A stretch of DNA of 64,000 bases. Origin: a virus. A model generated the notes under the pieces. The model made no database searches, had not been told where the DNA came from, and saw only the letters and a program-made list of their open reading frames with translations. Location: IMG/VR virus record IMGVR_UViG_3300046474_000061, positions 1 through 64,000 of that record; one strand, 5' to 3'. Of the stretch, positions 30,874-42,488 are shown piece after piece. The stretch's first letter is position 1. Each line of letters opens with the position of its first letter. The position numbers and the translations under genes were made by a program.

Positions 30874-31674
30874 ATGTCTATTACCGCAATGTTCTCATAC
30901 AATCAGTTCTCCGAAGGTGGTAAGGAACTGGCTGATGCACTCTCTATTCCACGTATCAAGCATTCTGGTTCGAAGTTCAAGGCGACTTCCAGCAAGACCC
31001 TGTTGAATTGGGGTGCTACCTCTGACCGGTTCCCGAAGGAATATCTTTCGTGCCGAGTCCTGAACCCACCATCTGCTGTCGACAATGCAGTGGATAAGAT
31101 TCGTTCCTTTGATATCTTCAAGGCTGCGAAGGTTTCCATCCCTGAGTTCACGACAAATAGGCAACAGGCTATCGAGTGGCTGAATGCTGGTTCGATGGTG
31201 TTTGCTCGTACTCAGCTTCGTGCACACTCTGGTCGTGGTATTGTCATCATGGACCCTGAGTTCCCTGAAACTTGGGAAGTGACTGCCCCTCTCTTTGTCA
31301 AGTACGTACCGAAGAAGGATGAGTATCGTATCCATGTGATGCGTGGTCAGGTTGTGGACATCCAGCGTAAAGGTCTGAAGGCAGAGCTTCAGGGTACGGA
31401 AGGAGTCAACTTTAAGATCCGTAACCTTGCCAACGGCTTCATCTATACCCGTAATGACAATGCTGGTATGGCTCTGATCTTGTCTGCATCTGTCCCTCAG
31501 AATGTCAAGGAAGTAGCTGTTCAGGCAGTTGCTGCTCTTAGTCTCGACTTCGGTGCAGCAGACATCATCTGGAATGATAAACAGAAGAAGGCGTATTGCC
31601 TTGAAGTGAATACGGCTCCGGGTCTCTCGGGTTCTACCATCACCAACTATGCCGAAGCAATGGCCGGTTTCTAA
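30874..31674 (+). CDS. ATP-grasp ligase (RimK-like)
   Basis: A 266-aa protein from ATG 30874. ATP-grasp elements: KAAKVSIPEF, VFARTQLRAHSGRGIVIM (nucleotide-binding strand and Gly loop), FVKYVPKKDEYRIHVM, and C-terminal AADIIWNDKQKKAYCLEVNT then APGLSGST (Mg-binding Glu-x-Asn). RimK-type enzymes add glutamate or other amino acids to carboxyl groups. The third amide-forming enzyme of the cluster. Confidence 0.85.
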   Translation: MSITAMFSYNQFSEGGKELADALSIPRIKHSGSKFKATSSKTLLNWGATSDRFPKEYLSCRVLNPPSAVDNAVDKIRSFDIFKAAKVSIPEFTTNRQQAIEWLNAGSMVFARTQLRAHSGRGIVIMDPEFPETWEVTAPLFVKYVPKKDEYRIHVMRGQVVDIQRKGLKAELQGTEGVNFKIRNLANGFIYTRNDNAGMALILSASVPQNVKEVAVQAVAALSLDFGAADIIWNDKQKKAYCLEVNTAPGLSGSTITNYAEAMAGF

Positions 31675-35131: not shown

Positions 35132-35160
35132 TTGACAACCTCAAATAGAAATGGTATAAT
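35132..35160 (+). promoter_or_regulatory. consensus sigma70-type promoter
   Basis: TTGACA (35132-35137), 17-base spacer, TATAAT (35155-35160), a perfect match, immediately after the last tail gene and 9 bases before ATG 35169. The transcript start would then nearly coincide with the ATG. Either the 35169 gene is read leaderless or by upstream transcription, or the promoter mainly serves the primase. Confidence 0.8.
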
Positions 35161-35168
35161 TAAATTTC

Positions 35169-35408
35169 ATGAGTAAACTAGAAGAATTTCAGGACCTAAT
35201 CAAATACGACAATAAGAGTGGACACCATCGTTGCTCAATCTGCAACTGCGTGACAAATGAAAGTATCGCCACAGAGATTGGTGACTTCCGTTCACGTATG
35301 TCCTTCACCCCTGATCCCAAAGACCGAATGCATGATATCTGTATTGAATGTGCTGAGGTCATTCAAGAGCAGCGTGATGAGTATTCTTATTACGACGAAG
35401 AGGAATAA
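35169..35408 (+). CDS. small zinc-finger protein
   Basis: A 79-aa product with CSICNC (residues 22-27) and CIEC (about 58-61), a four-Cys zinc site as in DksA-like or ribbon proteins, and an acidic end YYDEEE. Its TAA is followed in the same frame, without any other stop, by the primase zinc domain. Confidence 0.7.
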   Translation: MSKLEEFQDLIKYDNKSGHHRCSICNCVTNESIATEIGDFRSRMSFTPDPKDRMHDICIECAEVIQEQRDEYSYYDEEE

Positions 35409-35411
35409 GAG

Positions 35412-36965
35412 ATAGGAAAGTGGGCTAAGACAGCACAGCCTTGTCCCTGCGGTAAGTCATCAGATGCCTATTCCATTGACACAGATGGCAAGGGTTTCTG
35501 CTTTGGCTCATGTGGGGGTAAATTCTTTAGAAACGAAAAAGAAGAGGATATGGATAATACACAATTTAAATTTGAATTCCATGAACACAGAGGACTAAAG
35601 AGACGTATCCTAGAATTGTATGGGGTACAGACTAAGTTCTATGAAGGTACACCAATCGAAGATGCTTTCTTCTATCCGAATGGAAGTATCAAGATTAGGA
35701 ACCTTGCAGAGAAGAAGTTCCGAACTCAGGGTAATTTTACTGAAGCCCACTTGTTCGGTAAGAACGTATTTGATGCTGGTTCACGTAGAGCCATCACCAT
35801 TACGGAAGGTGAATATGATACGATGTCTGTAGCACAGATGCTAGGCGAAGAGAGTGCAGTTGTCTCTGTTCGTAATGCAGCAAGTGCCAAGGCTGATTGT
35901 ATCGCAGAACATGAATATATTAATTCATTTGATCGTATTATTATTAATTTTGATAATGATGCCCCCGGACAAGACGCTGCGAAAAAGGTAGCAGCTCTAT
36001 TTGACTTTAAGAAGACGTACAATCTTTGCTTGTCAAAAGGCAAGGATGCCAACGGTTATCTGACCGATGGTTTAATGAAGGAGTACTACGATGCCTGGAA
36101 GGGTGTCCGACGTTACACTCCTGACAATCTCTTGAGTACACTCAGTGAGTTCAAGGAAGCCCTTAAGTCTAAGAGGGAAGAAAAGCTTGCTGACTATCCA
36201 TTCGAGAATCTACAACGAATGCTCTTCGGTCTACACCGAGGGGAAGTCATTGTGGTTAAGGCACCAGAAGGTGTTGGTAAATCGGAGTTCTTCCGAGCAC
36301 TCGAAAACCATGTGCTCAAGACAACCAAGCATCCTGTTGGATTGATCCACTTGGAAGAGGATAACGGCACAACTCTTAGAGCTATGGCCGGATACTTCTC
36401 TGAGAAACCAATCCTACATCCAGAAGAAAACTTTGAAGATGATGAAGTCCTCAAGATCCTCTCAGATATTATGGGAGAGCAAGAGAACCGATTTGTCCTT
36501 CACAGTTCCTTCGATGTTGAGGATGAAGATGCATTCATAGATAACGTAAGGTTTATGGTTGCAGCATGTGGAGCAGAGGTTATTTTCTTTGACCACATCT
36601 CTTGGTTGGCAACTGGTGGTGGAGACAAAGGTGACGACGAACGTAAGCGACTTGACCGTATCTCTCAGAGGCTGAAGCTTCTGGCAAAGGAACTAGGGTT
36701 CTGTCTGGTCATGATCTCTCACGTTAATGATGATGGACTCACCAGAGGGTCTAGAAACATCAGTAAGGTAGCAAACACTGTTATCTCACTGGCTCGTGAC
36801 AAAACGTCTACAGACGCACTAGAGAGGCTTAAAACACACATCCTTGTTGAGAAGGCACGACTGATTGGTTCGAAGGAAGGACCAGCCGGTTATGGCATAT
36901 ATGATGAGGAGCGTCTCATGTTGGTGGACCCTCATAAAATGGGACTGGAGTTACCTAATGAATAA
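35412..36965 (+). CDS. primase-helicase (T7 gp4-like), apparent ATA start
   Basis: From ATA 35412 the frame gives 517 aa. The zinc ribbon Cys11-x-Cys13...Cys30-x3-Cys34 comes first, then TOPRIM motifs ITEGEYD and FDNDAPG, then the helicase Walker A APEGVGKS and an FDHISWL Walker B. The first ATG (35550) would remove the whole zinc ribbon, like T7 gp4B. No ATG, GTG, TTG or CTG lies between the in-frame TAA (35406) and 35550; GAGGA sits 7 bases before ATA. Alternatives are readthrough of TAA from the zinc-finger gene, or use of only the 471-aa short form. It unwinds DNA and primes lagging strands at the fork. Confidence 0.85.
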   Translation: MGKWAKTAQPCPCGKSSDAYSIDTDGKGFCFGSCGGKFFRNEKEEDMDNTQFKFEFHEHRGLKRRILELYGVQTKFYEGTPIEDAFFYPNGSIKIRNLAEKKFRTQGNFTEAHLFGKNVFDAGSRRAITITEGEYDTMSVAQMLGEESAVVSVRNAASAKADCIAEHEYINSFDRIIINFDNDAPGQDAAKKVAALFDFKKTYNLCLSKGKDANGYLTDGLMKEYYDAWKGVRRYTPDNLLSTLSEFKEALKSKREEKLADYPFENLQRMLFGLHRGEVIVVKAPEGVGKSEFFRALENHVLKTTKHPVGLIHLEEDNGTTLRAMAGYFSEKPILHPEENFEDDEVLKILSDIMGEQENRFVLHSSFDVEDEDAFIDNVRFMVAACGAEVIFFDHISWLATGGGDKGDDERKRLDRISQRLKLLAKELGFCLVMISHVNDDGLTRGSRNISKVANTVISLARDKTSTDALERLKTHILVEKARLIGSKEGPAGYGIYDEERLMLVDPHKMGLELPNE

Positions 36966-37089
36966 GTTCATTCTTTTATTTGGTGTTGTAGTAGCTCTTG
37001 CACTCATACTTCATGGGTGTGGGGCATTGCAACAGTATCGACAAACACAAGAAGAAAATTCTTTGTATAAAACCCTCCCAAGGGGTTGA
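36958..37089 (+). CDS. 43-aa putative lipoprotein
   Basis: ATG 36958 overlaps the helicase stop. MNKFILLFGVVVALALILHG then Cys: a signal peptide with a lipobox-like LHGC, followed by a short polar tail. A small envelope lipoprotein; function unknown. Confidence 0.55.
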   Translation: MNKFILLFGVVVALALILHGCGALQQYRQTQEENSLYKTLPRG

Positions 37090-37114
37090 CAGTGTTTTGT
37101 ACTAATGCTATAAT
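37086..37114 (+). promoter_or_regulatory. consensus sigma70-type promoter
   Basis: TTGACA (37086-37091), 17-base spacer, TATAAT (37109-37114), a perfect match, 26 bases before ATG 37140. It overlaps the stop of the lipoprotein gene and would serve the DNA polymerase block. Confidence 0.85.
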
Positions 37115-37449: not shown

Positions 37450-39530
37450 TTGGCGAATGGAATATGGGTATTTGATTGTGAAGGAGACGGTCTTAATCCG
37501 ACAAAACTATATTGTTTAGCTGCCTGTAGCCCCCAAGGCAAGAATGTATTTGTAACAAATGATTATGACAAGATGCGGAAGTTTTTATTGTCCGCAAAAG
37601 TTCTCATCGGACATAATATTAGGCGATGGGACATTCCCCACATAGAGCGTATCCTTGGTATTAAGATCACTGCTAAGTTGGTAGACACACTGTCTCTATC
37701 TTGGTATCTCTATCCTGAAAGGTTCAATCATGGACTTGACGGATGGGGTGAGGATCTTGGTGTCAAGAAACCGGTGATCACCGACTGGCTGAACCAGACA
37801 CAAGAAGAGTACGAGCATCGTTGTTCTGAAGACGTTAAGATTAACGTAATGCTTTGGAATAAGATGTATCGTTACCTCTTCGATATTTATGGATCATCTG
37901 ATGGAGTATGGAAACTCCTCAAGTATCTCGACTTCAAACTCTATTGTGCCATGCTTCAAGAGCGATCACAGTGGAAGCTAGATATCGAGAATGCTGAACA
38001 AGCTCTTGCTGAGTTGACAGAGTTGCAGTCCCAAAAGATTGACACTCTAGCGAGAAAGATGCCACCAGTTCCTGTGGTGACATTCAAACATAAGCCCAAA
38101 CGGTTCCTTAATAAAGATGGGTCATACTCGAAGATGGGTATGGACTGGATGGCTCTACTGTCAGAGAGAAAGCTTCCACCAAGTCATGAGGAACCAATCG
38201 AGATTACCAAGGGGTATGAACAAGGTAATCCGAACTCTACTTCGCAGATAAAAGATTGGCTTACTACTTTGGGGTGGGTCCCAAGGACATTCAAGGAAGT
38301 CAAAAACAAAACGACTGGTGAGGTCAAGAGTAACTCTCAGATCAATCTTGAGCACGGCAAAGGAATTTGTGGTAGCATCAAGGCTCTGTATCCTAAAGAA
38401 CCATCCCTAGAACTCCTAGATGGTTTGTCTGTCCTACAACATAGGATTGGCATCCTCAAAGGTTTCCTGAGAGATCAGGAGAATGGATGGATCAAGGCAC
38501 AGGTTGCTGGTCTGACAAACACTCTTCGTTTCAAACATACCACAATCGTTAATCTGCCAAAACCTGGAAAGCTATATGCAGATGGCATTCGTGCCTCTCT
38601 TGTTGCTGGAGAAGGTATGATTTTGTGTGGTGCTGATATGTCTTCTCTTGAGGATCGTATCAAACAACACTTCATCTATCCTTATGACCCTGACTTCGTC
38701 AAAGAAATGATGGAAGAAGGTTATGACCCACATCTGTCCCTAGCACTATCGGCATCCGCTGTAACTATTGAGCAAGTGCTGAAGTATAAGGATGGAACAG
38801 ATAAGGGCATCTCACCTACCCGTGATGTCTTCAAGAACGGTAATTATGCCTAAATTTGGGCATGTAAAATCGTGTGAACTCAGGGAAACTCCAGAACGGA
38901 CAATCCTGAGCCAAGCCCGAAAGGGAAGGTGCAACGACTATCTCGAAAGAGAGTACACAGAAGTCTGTGGAAGCGCACGACACTCACAAAGAGTGATGAT
39001 ATAGTCTGGTCTATATAGGAATATATAGCAGCGAAAGCGGGTAGAGATTAACGACCTCTATCGAACATAACGGTCAGTATGGTTCAGGTGTGGCTCGATT
39101 GGCCAAGACTGCTGGTATCGACTTAGAGACAGCGGCGATGGTCCATGCAGCTTATTGGAAGAAGAATTGGGCAATCAAGAAGATCGCTTCGGTTCAGATC
39201 ACAAAGGTCGTCAATGATCAGATGTGGTTGTACAATCCAGTAAGTCAGCTCTGGTACTCACTTCGATTTGAAAAGGACATCTTCAGTACACTGGTGCAGG
39301 GAACTGCAAGTTATGTGTTCGACAGATGGGTAGAGTTCATCCTCGAAGTCAGAGAGCAACTCACAGGACAGATGCATGACGAATTCATCTTGTGCATTCG
39401 TGAGGGTTTTGAAGACCAATGTACCGCCCTCGTTGAGGAGGCAATGACTAAACTAAATGAAGAACTGAAACTTAACAGAGAGCTTGCCTGTGGTATCGCC
39501 TACGGTAAGAAATATAGCGACATCCATTAA
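37450..39530 (+). CDS. family A DNA polymerase, split by a group I intron
   Basis: TTG start at 37450 behind AGAAGG. The exons 37450-38851 and 39073-39530 join into 619 codons. Exon 1 has the 3'-5' exonuclease (FDCEGDGL, with Asp/Glu metal ligands) and palm motif A (CGADMSSLEDR). Exon 2 has motif C (GQMHDEF). Finger motif B (RDVFK...QYGSG) is formed only after splicing: the spacing Lys-x7-Tyr-Gly is then as in T7 polymerase. Replicative enzyme. It lacks about 85 residues compared with T7 polymerase. Confidence 0.9.
38852..39072 (+). other. group I intron (IA2-like), no ORF
   Basis: A 221-nt intron. P1 is ATGCCT (exon end) pairing with GGGCAT inside the intron, with the terminal T-G wobble at the splice site. 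The P7/R region GCAACGACTATC, the S region GATATAGTC and the end GAGATTAACGACCT...GAACATAACG closely follow the 3' part of the T4 td intron. The last base is the conserved G. It is much shorter than td because no endonuclease ORF is present. Inserted in the codon after NGNYA, within polymerase motif B. Confidence 0.9.
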
Positions 39531-41972: not shown

Positions 41973-42124
41973 CGGGTGATCTAACAAAGATCTCTCAGAT
42001 CCTGAATGATATAAGGGTAGTCGATAAGAATCTAAACAGTTACTTGAACACTGCCATCTATGCACTTCATTGTGCAGTAAAGGAGTTAGACAATAGCAAA
42101 AAGGAAATTCAAGAACCCGAGTGA
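41954..42124 (+). CDS. small helical protein, 56 aa
   Basis: ATG 41954, inside the exonuclease end. MGTGTIAGDLTKISQILNDI, then a second helix with one Cys and an acidic end. Its end overlaps the endonuclease I start, and the AGGAG used by that gene lies within it. Function unknown. Confidence 0.55.
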   Translation: MGTGTIAGDLTKISQILNDIRVVDKNLNSYLNTAIYALHCAVKELDNSKKEIQEPE

Positions 42125-42488
42125 AGAGAAGTGCTTTAATGTACTTAAGGAAATGGTTCCAAAGGTAACATACGAGACTGTTAAACTCCCCTACATCATC
42201 AAGCATGACTACATACCAGACTATGTCGTGACAAAAGCTGATGGCTCCATTGTTTATGTGGAGTATAAAGGAAACGGTAGGGCTTTCGATGCTTCAGTTA
42301 AAAGGAAGATGATTGAAGTAAAGAAGCAACATCCAGAGATTACAATCTATATCGTATTTCATACCAATGGGAAGAGTGGTTCCAGACGTAAGGATGGGAC
42401 TTATATGAAACAAAGCGACTGGGCAGAGAAGCATGGCTTCGAGTATTGCATCGGTCGTGAGAACATTCCAACATCATGGTTTGAATAA
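42093..42488 (+). CDS. endonuclease I (T7 gp3-like Holliday junction resolvase), ATA start
   Basis: From ATA 42093, 131 aa beginning (M)AKRKFKNPSEEKCFNVL. The catalytic set of T7 endonuclease I is present: Glu in SEEK, Asp in YIPDY, Glu/Lys in YVEYKG. The first Glu lies upstream of the only ATG (42153), so the ATG form would be dead. In-frame TAG at 42087 limits the start to the 21 codons between; none is ATG, GTG, TTG or CTG. AAAGGAG stands exactly 7 bases before ATA. It resolves branched DNA before packaging and degrades host DNA. Confidence 0.85.
   Translation: MAKRKFKNPSEEKCFNVLKEMVPKVTYETVKLPYIIKHDYIPDYVVTKADGSIVYVEYKGNGRAFDASVKRKMIEVKKQHPEITIYIVFHTNGKSGSRRKDGTYMKQSDWAEKHGFEYCIGRENIPTSWFE

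Follow-up and report, generated by a model that had tools for sequence, protein, structure and literature searches.

Probable AUA initiation of a phage primase-helicase, with AUA in place of NTG starts in other replication genes of its clade

Introduction

Gene product 4 (gp4) of phage T7 carries a zinc ribbon, a Toprim domain and a RecA-like helicase in one chain. The zinc ribbon is required for its primase function.

Start codons outside the NTG set have been described in several bacteria. The AUU of infC in Escherichia coli and the GUC of sigR in Streptomyces are conserved non-NTG starts that hold expression low, and repression through IF3 was demonstrated for both (PMC5472188). In Staphylococcus aureus AUA is the true start of infC, ccpN and citZ, where it lies behind a Shine-Dalgarno (SD) sequence and was missed by earlier annotation; the AUA of ccpN is conserved across species (PMC13009471). 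In S. aureus reporters AUA and AUU starts gave approximately 10% of the AUG level, and up to 30% (PMC13009471). In E. coli AUA initiation reaches up to approximately 1% of AUG, a value cited second-hand, and a strain with an ATG-to-ATA change in rpoS had RpoS reduced up to 5-fold (PMC12864459). A ribosome profiling study of Sinorhizobium meliloti names ATG, GTG and TTG as start codons (PMC10117765). A literature search of partial coverage yielded no account of phage genes, those of replication modules included, that start with AUA, which is not proof of absence.

Materials and Methods

The window is the whole stretch of DNA analyzed, 64,000 nucleotides of a 69,935-base phage record in IMG/VR (IMGVR_UViG_3300046474_000061). 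Primase starts were compared across 12 distinct N-termini including the window, drawn from viral contigs and named phages. Loci L001, L002, L019 and L020 were excluded as copies of the window, N3_13 as a repeat of I3_11, and L029 because its N-terminus is missing. L022/L023 and L024/L026 are near-identical pairs within the set of 12. An automatic consensus-column census of 57 groups placed the column inside several genes including the primase and was used only as a lead to the gene in the single-stranded DNA binding protein (SSB) position. A list of 61 flagged rows consisted mostly of upstream sequence conserved between N3_19 and I3_11, which are near-identical, and it was read by eye.

Results

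The window phage and its relatives

The source phage of the window is rhizobium-type. It is kin to Rhizobium phages RHph_N3_19, RHph_I3_11 and RHph_N3_13 and to Sinorhizobium phage phiM6, with orthologous replication genes forming one clade. The primases of these four phages are 71-74% identical to the window primase and, unlike it, start with ATG. Phage phiM6 has been grouped with marine HMO-2011-type phages (PMC6256558). A more distant relative, L028, is a 68,964-base record with a primase 64% identical to that of the window. The IMG/VR contig 3300049460_000066 (locus L001) was identical to the window over all 7,554 bases compared, and the two may come from the same sample. In the relatives, genes for an amidoligase, ATP-grasp, glutamine amidotransferase and peptidase C26 lie together at L007 12633-21514 and L010 6368-13561. 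Peptidoglycan modification is cited in the phiM6 paper as a proposed role (PMC6256558).

The primase-helicase locus

The features of the locus are as follows.

35132..35160, plus strand: sigma-70-type promoter-like TTGACA-17-TATAAT ahead of the zinc-finger/primase pair (12/12 consensus matches, TG before the -10; a consensus match only)
35169..35408, plus strand: small zinc-finger gene, 79 aa, ATG to TAA, an ORF separate from the primase (homolog at most 700 nt from the primase start in 12/12 rows, at varying distance and phase)
35400..35404, plus strand: primase SD GAGGA, with a 7-nt spacer to the ATA (duplex energy -5.8 kcal/mol)
35412..35414, plus strand: AUA proposed to initiate the primase-helicase, decoded as fMet (aligns with TTG, ATG, GTG and ATA starts of relatives)
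35412..36965, plus strand: full-length primase-helicase, 517 aa, with zinc ribbon, Toprim and DnaB-like helicase (phrog_239, PF13155, PF03796, 6n7i)
35442..35513, plus strand: primase zinc ribbon CPC...CFGSC, Cys 11, 13, 30 and 34 (Cys invariant in 4/4 aligned primases)
35550..35552, plus strand: earliest ATG in the frame, from which a helicase-only short form of 471 aa might start (not conserved)

The primase frame reads TAA at 35406-35408, GAG at 35409 and ATA at 35412, followed by GGA AAG TGG GCT AAG ACA GCA CAG CCT. The ribbon cysteines are encoded by TGT 35442, TGC 35448, TGC 35499 and TGT 35511. No NTG occurs in this frame from TAA 35406 until ATG 35550, which is downstream of the ribbon. 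The original prediction had described a zinc ribbon upstream of the first helicase ATG without an NTG start, a GAGGA-7 nt-ATA arrangement shared with endonuclease I, and a zinc-finger gene in the primase frame with a single TAA between. Direct reading confirmed each of these, and the coordinates given were correct. Endonuclease I has AAGGAG 42080-42085, a 7-nt spacer and ATA 42093, and the zinc-finger ORF is 35169-35408. A second perfect TTGACA-17-TATAAT with TG before the -10 was seen at 37086-37114, upstream of the polymerase.

The full-length product matched phrog_239 over residues 3-508 (E 1.4e-107), both PF13155 and PF03796, and T7 gp4 chain 6n7i (E 5.2e-36). As in T7 gp4, a zinc ribbon is joined in a single chain to a Toprim primase core and a DnaB/RecA-like helicase. 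The ribbon gave a weak local match to gp4 residues 16-38. Cysteine spacing differs, being CPC and CFGSC in the window against Cx2C pairs in T7, of which the alignment covers residues 16-38. The window primase also differs from gp4 in its AUA start and in its internal start, which is not conserved. In each of 10 relatives 24-31 of the 35-52 base differences in the zinc-ribbon region fell at third codon positions, so this is a selected coding region.

The primase start column

ATG was the start codon in seven of the 12 primases (L022, L023, L024, L027, N3_19, I3_11 and phiM6), TTG in two (L021 and L025), GTG in one (L026) and ATA in two (window and L028). The column was gap-free and exact in 8/12. 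The start was one codon downstream in N3_19 and I3_11 and one codon upstream in L022 and L023. L028 reads AAAGGAG-ATTAAGC-ATA GGT AAC TGG compared to ATA GGA AAG TGG in the window. The AAAGGAG is a strong SD, its spacer to the ATA is also 7 nt, and the frame has no NTG until codon 55. The upstream stop precedes the ATA by 3 nt in the window and 2 nt in L028. On the protein tree L028 was sister to L027 (ATG) and apart from the window, requiring two NTG/ATA changes. ATA is present in just these two of the 12 relatives, on separate branches.

The primases of Roseobacter phages CRP-9 (L126 301-442) and CRP-6 (L127 301-409) are annotated from a downstream ATG, with an open zinc-ribbon region upstream that contains in-frame NTG starts. 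These are probably simple misannotations.

Endonuclease I

42080..42085, plus strand: SD AAGGAG of endonuclease I, 7 nt before the ATA (duplex energy -6.6 kcal/mol)
42093..42488, plus strand: endonuclease I gene, 131 aa, with a proposed AUA start, the second such gene of the window (PF05367, E 2.1e-14; relatives carry ATA at the equivalent position)

There was no NTG from TAG 42087 to the conserved Glu-11, and the first NTG was at 42153. A catalytic Glu of T7 endonuclease I falls in this region; the structure search did not show it to match Glu-11 of the window. Rows without an NTG from the upstream stop to approximately residue 11 made up 8/14 of the clade (six distinct) compared to 1/78 outer rows, that one being cut at the locus end. 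The start column of the NTG-less rows was ATA in the window, L013, L030 (equal to L035), L032 and I3_11 (equal to N3_13), while N3_19 had ATC. The SD energies at these sites lay between -6.2 and -11.4 kcal/mol. L012, L031 and phiM6 had ATA at the equivalent place plus another in-frame NTG. The gene of L033 started with ATG, as did that of L044/L045, which had been considered as ATC starts and were dropped on finding ATG two codons upstream.

Annotation of this gene varied. In N3_19 (L007 31119-31559, start ATC 31119) it was missed in GenBank and an antisense ORF (31176-31634, minus strand) was annotated instead. In phiM6 it was annotated from a TTG 15 nt inside. The ATA spans rows approximately 43-82% identical to the window, which suggests selection or long tolerance. 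As judged by eye, this start codon may be further constrained by the upstream reading frame that overlaps it.

DNA polymerase and the SSB-position gene

A group I intron at 38842-39028 of the window (Rfam RF00028, E 3.5e-22) splits the DNA polymerase A gene, giving two polymerase ORFs at 37450-38853 and 39045-39530. The polymerase starts with ATA in N3_19 and I3_11/N3_13, with ATG in phiM6, L022, L023, L025 and L028, and with TTG in the window, L027 and L029. The 5' ends are ATA AGA GTA TTT GTT TTC GAT in N3_19 and ATA ACA AAG ATT TGG GTA in I3_11/N3_13. Each ATA forms a TAATA overlap in N3_19 and I3_11, and the open frame lacks any NTG upstream of codon 36 in N3_19 and of codon 42 in I3_11. 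The GenBank starts of N3_19 and I3_11/N3_13 lie approximately 30-40 codons inside (approximately 40 in I3_11) and omit an N-terminal D-x-E stretch. We take a D-x-E near the polymerase N-terminus to be an exonuclease motif.

The gene that starts with TTG 40389 in the window had no PHROG match, and its position points to an SSB. In L028 this gene has ATA behind AAAGGAG, and its open frame lacks any NTG upstream of codon 93. In phiM6 it reads ATA GCA ACT compared to TTG GCA ACT in the window and L112. For the phiM6 gene the annotated start is a GTG that lies 12 codons further upstream, and the gene has in-frame NTGs besides the ATA. A further phiM6 ORF (L009 34864-35661, minus strand) has a possible CTG start (AGA CTG ACT AAG CAC, compared to TTG AGT ACA TAC in I3_11), with the annotated start upstream.

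The genes with candidate AUA starts differ between the phages: polymerase and endonuclease I in I3_11 and N3_13, polymerase in N3_19 (where endonuclease I has ATC), and the SSB-position gene and endonuclease I in phiM6. Six of seven wider phage relatives had NTG starts and the seventh, Saratov-12, could not be judged. The trait therefore seems limited to the clade of the window phage.

SD strength, folding and genetic code

The primase SD (-5.8 kcal/mol) equaled the median of 56 annotated plus-strand I3_11 gene starts, hand-picked from 82 features, and was matched or exceeded by 9.8% of 369 internal ATA codons. Energies at all 16 tabulated sites ranged from -4.0 to -11.4 kcal/mol. Folding was compared at six start regions, and that of the primase ATA was the most folded, at -9.8 kcal/mol over 60 nt. 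The merely average strength of the SD and the folded region speak against an AUA start of the primase.

Reassignment of ATA to Met was rejected. Internal ATA codons of the window aligned with Ile (28%), Leu (23%) and Val (16%) over 103 residue comparisons. Alignment columns that were otherwise all Met had ATG in the window at 58/62, and one of the remainder was a gap. Judged by these alignments, internal ATA is still read as Ile under the standard code. A search of the window found no tRNA genes, and so no phage-borne initiator tRNA there.

Alternative explanations of the primase start

Readthrough of UAA 35406 would fuse the upstream zinc-finger protein to the primase. It was offered as an alternative in the original prediction, since in the window the two share a frame one stop apart. 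Among the 12 rows this close in-frame adjacency occurs in the window alone. The distance from upstream stop to primase start in the 12 rows was 3 (window), -1, -1, -1, 1, 2, 16, 191, 191, 333, 468 and 469 nt. The frame is the same by distance in only two of the 11 other relatives (L021 and I3_11), both more than 300 nt away, and upstream genes that lie nearby outside the window are in a different frame from the primase. All 10 NTG relatives have a start codon of their own for the primase. UAA followed by G is not known to be leaky. The double-zinc fusion is thus extremely improbable, and frameshifting from the zinc-finger gene was ruled out as the phases differ among relatives. Somewhat less improbable, and still very unlikely, is that the main product is a helicase-only, gp4B-like form from ATG 35550, with the zinc ribbon little used or being lost. 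A purine-rich stretch lies upstream of this ATG, the short form would retain complete Toprim and helicase domains, and the position is ATG in 6/12 relatives and TTG in one. However, it is a non-start codon in the other five, including L028, the other ATA phage, the cysteines are invariant, and the mainly third-position change indicates purifying selection on the ribbon. A short form may also be made alongside the long one, from a start that is not conserved.

ATA is one base from ATG, the commonest codon of the column, and could reflect a sequencing or assembly error or a loss-of-function mutation in one contig. A chance ATG-to-ATA change of rpoS did arise in laboratory E. coli (PMC12864459). 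This explanation has very little probability. The second contig is identical, although it may share a sample with the window, the L028 primase also has ATA, and ATA starts occur in other genes of the separately GenBank-recorded isolates phiM6, I3_11, N3_13 and N3_19. Nine long window ORFs, with 6,086 codons between them, contain ATA just 14 times, yet it occupies the homologous start column. Among window ORFs homologous to two relatives only the primase and endonuclease I lacked an NTG before the conserved N-terminus, in a check made by eye that did not count ORFs truncated at either end of the window or the polymerase exon downstream of the intron. The original prediction had named ATG in relatives together with a sequencing error here as grounds against the ATA; relatives with ATG were found (7/12), while the identical contig and the ATA of L028 speak against the error. 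For the ATA start at 35412 that it proposed there is strong support, both from the relatives' start column and from the ATA starts in other genes of the clade.

Discussion

The primase-helicase is very probably translated from AUA 35412, and the replacement by AUA appears to recur in endonuclease I, the polymerase and the SSB-position gene. GAGGA, 7 nt upstream, would place the 30S subunit at the AUA, possibly assisted by ribosomes that have just terminated at the UAA 3 nt before. Two of the three bases of the AUA would pair with the initiator fMet-tRNA, giving a protein that begins with Met. AUA would thereby substitute for AUG, UUG or GUG at a start position common to the relatives. We infer a ribosome start at AUA 35412 with a yield below that of AUG and discrimination by IF3 against AUA.

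The closest parallels are the S. aureus genes, where AUA likewise lies behind an SD and escaped annotation. Those are host genes with proof from ribosome profiling and reporters (PMC13009471), and the evidence for the phage replication genes comes from sequence. SDs at the phage AUA starts are ordinary to strong and not always extended, in contrast to the S. aureus set (PMC13009471). As with infC and ccpN, no NTG precedes the first indispensable residue in the window, and an SD precedes the codon, which occupies the start column of the orthologs. Unlike infC and sigR, most primase relatives use NTG (10/12), and the IF3 repression demonstrated for those genes is only inferred for the window phage (PMC5472188).

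With ATG in 7/12 relatives, the ATA of the primase may have arisen recently and be poorly tolerated. Its two isolated occurrences amid NTG relatives are explained by tolerance no worse than by selection.

Conserved non-NTG starts are already known in bacteria, and the primase AUA most likely adds a phage replication gene to such sites. Recurrence of the same codon in four genes of a single replication module gives it added interest. A more speculative reading, which we consider rather doubtful, is that AUA (rarely AUC) is a regulatory start-codon class for the replication module of this clade. Yield would then follow the ratio of free IF3 to ribosomes, because IF3 would reject AUA and AUC starts. 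Output of the SSB-position gene, endonuclease I, primase-helicase and polymerase would track this ratio, which may shift during infection, and the toxic nuclease and the replisome would be held in proportion. Core enzymes of the clade are lost or truncated in databases because gene callers mostly accept only ATG, GTG and TTG. With several AUA starts in one module, AUA/NTG swaps on the same column form a natural allele set for tests of rare-start tolerance or selection; the phages are in culture, phiM6 on the laboratory host S. meliloti 1021.
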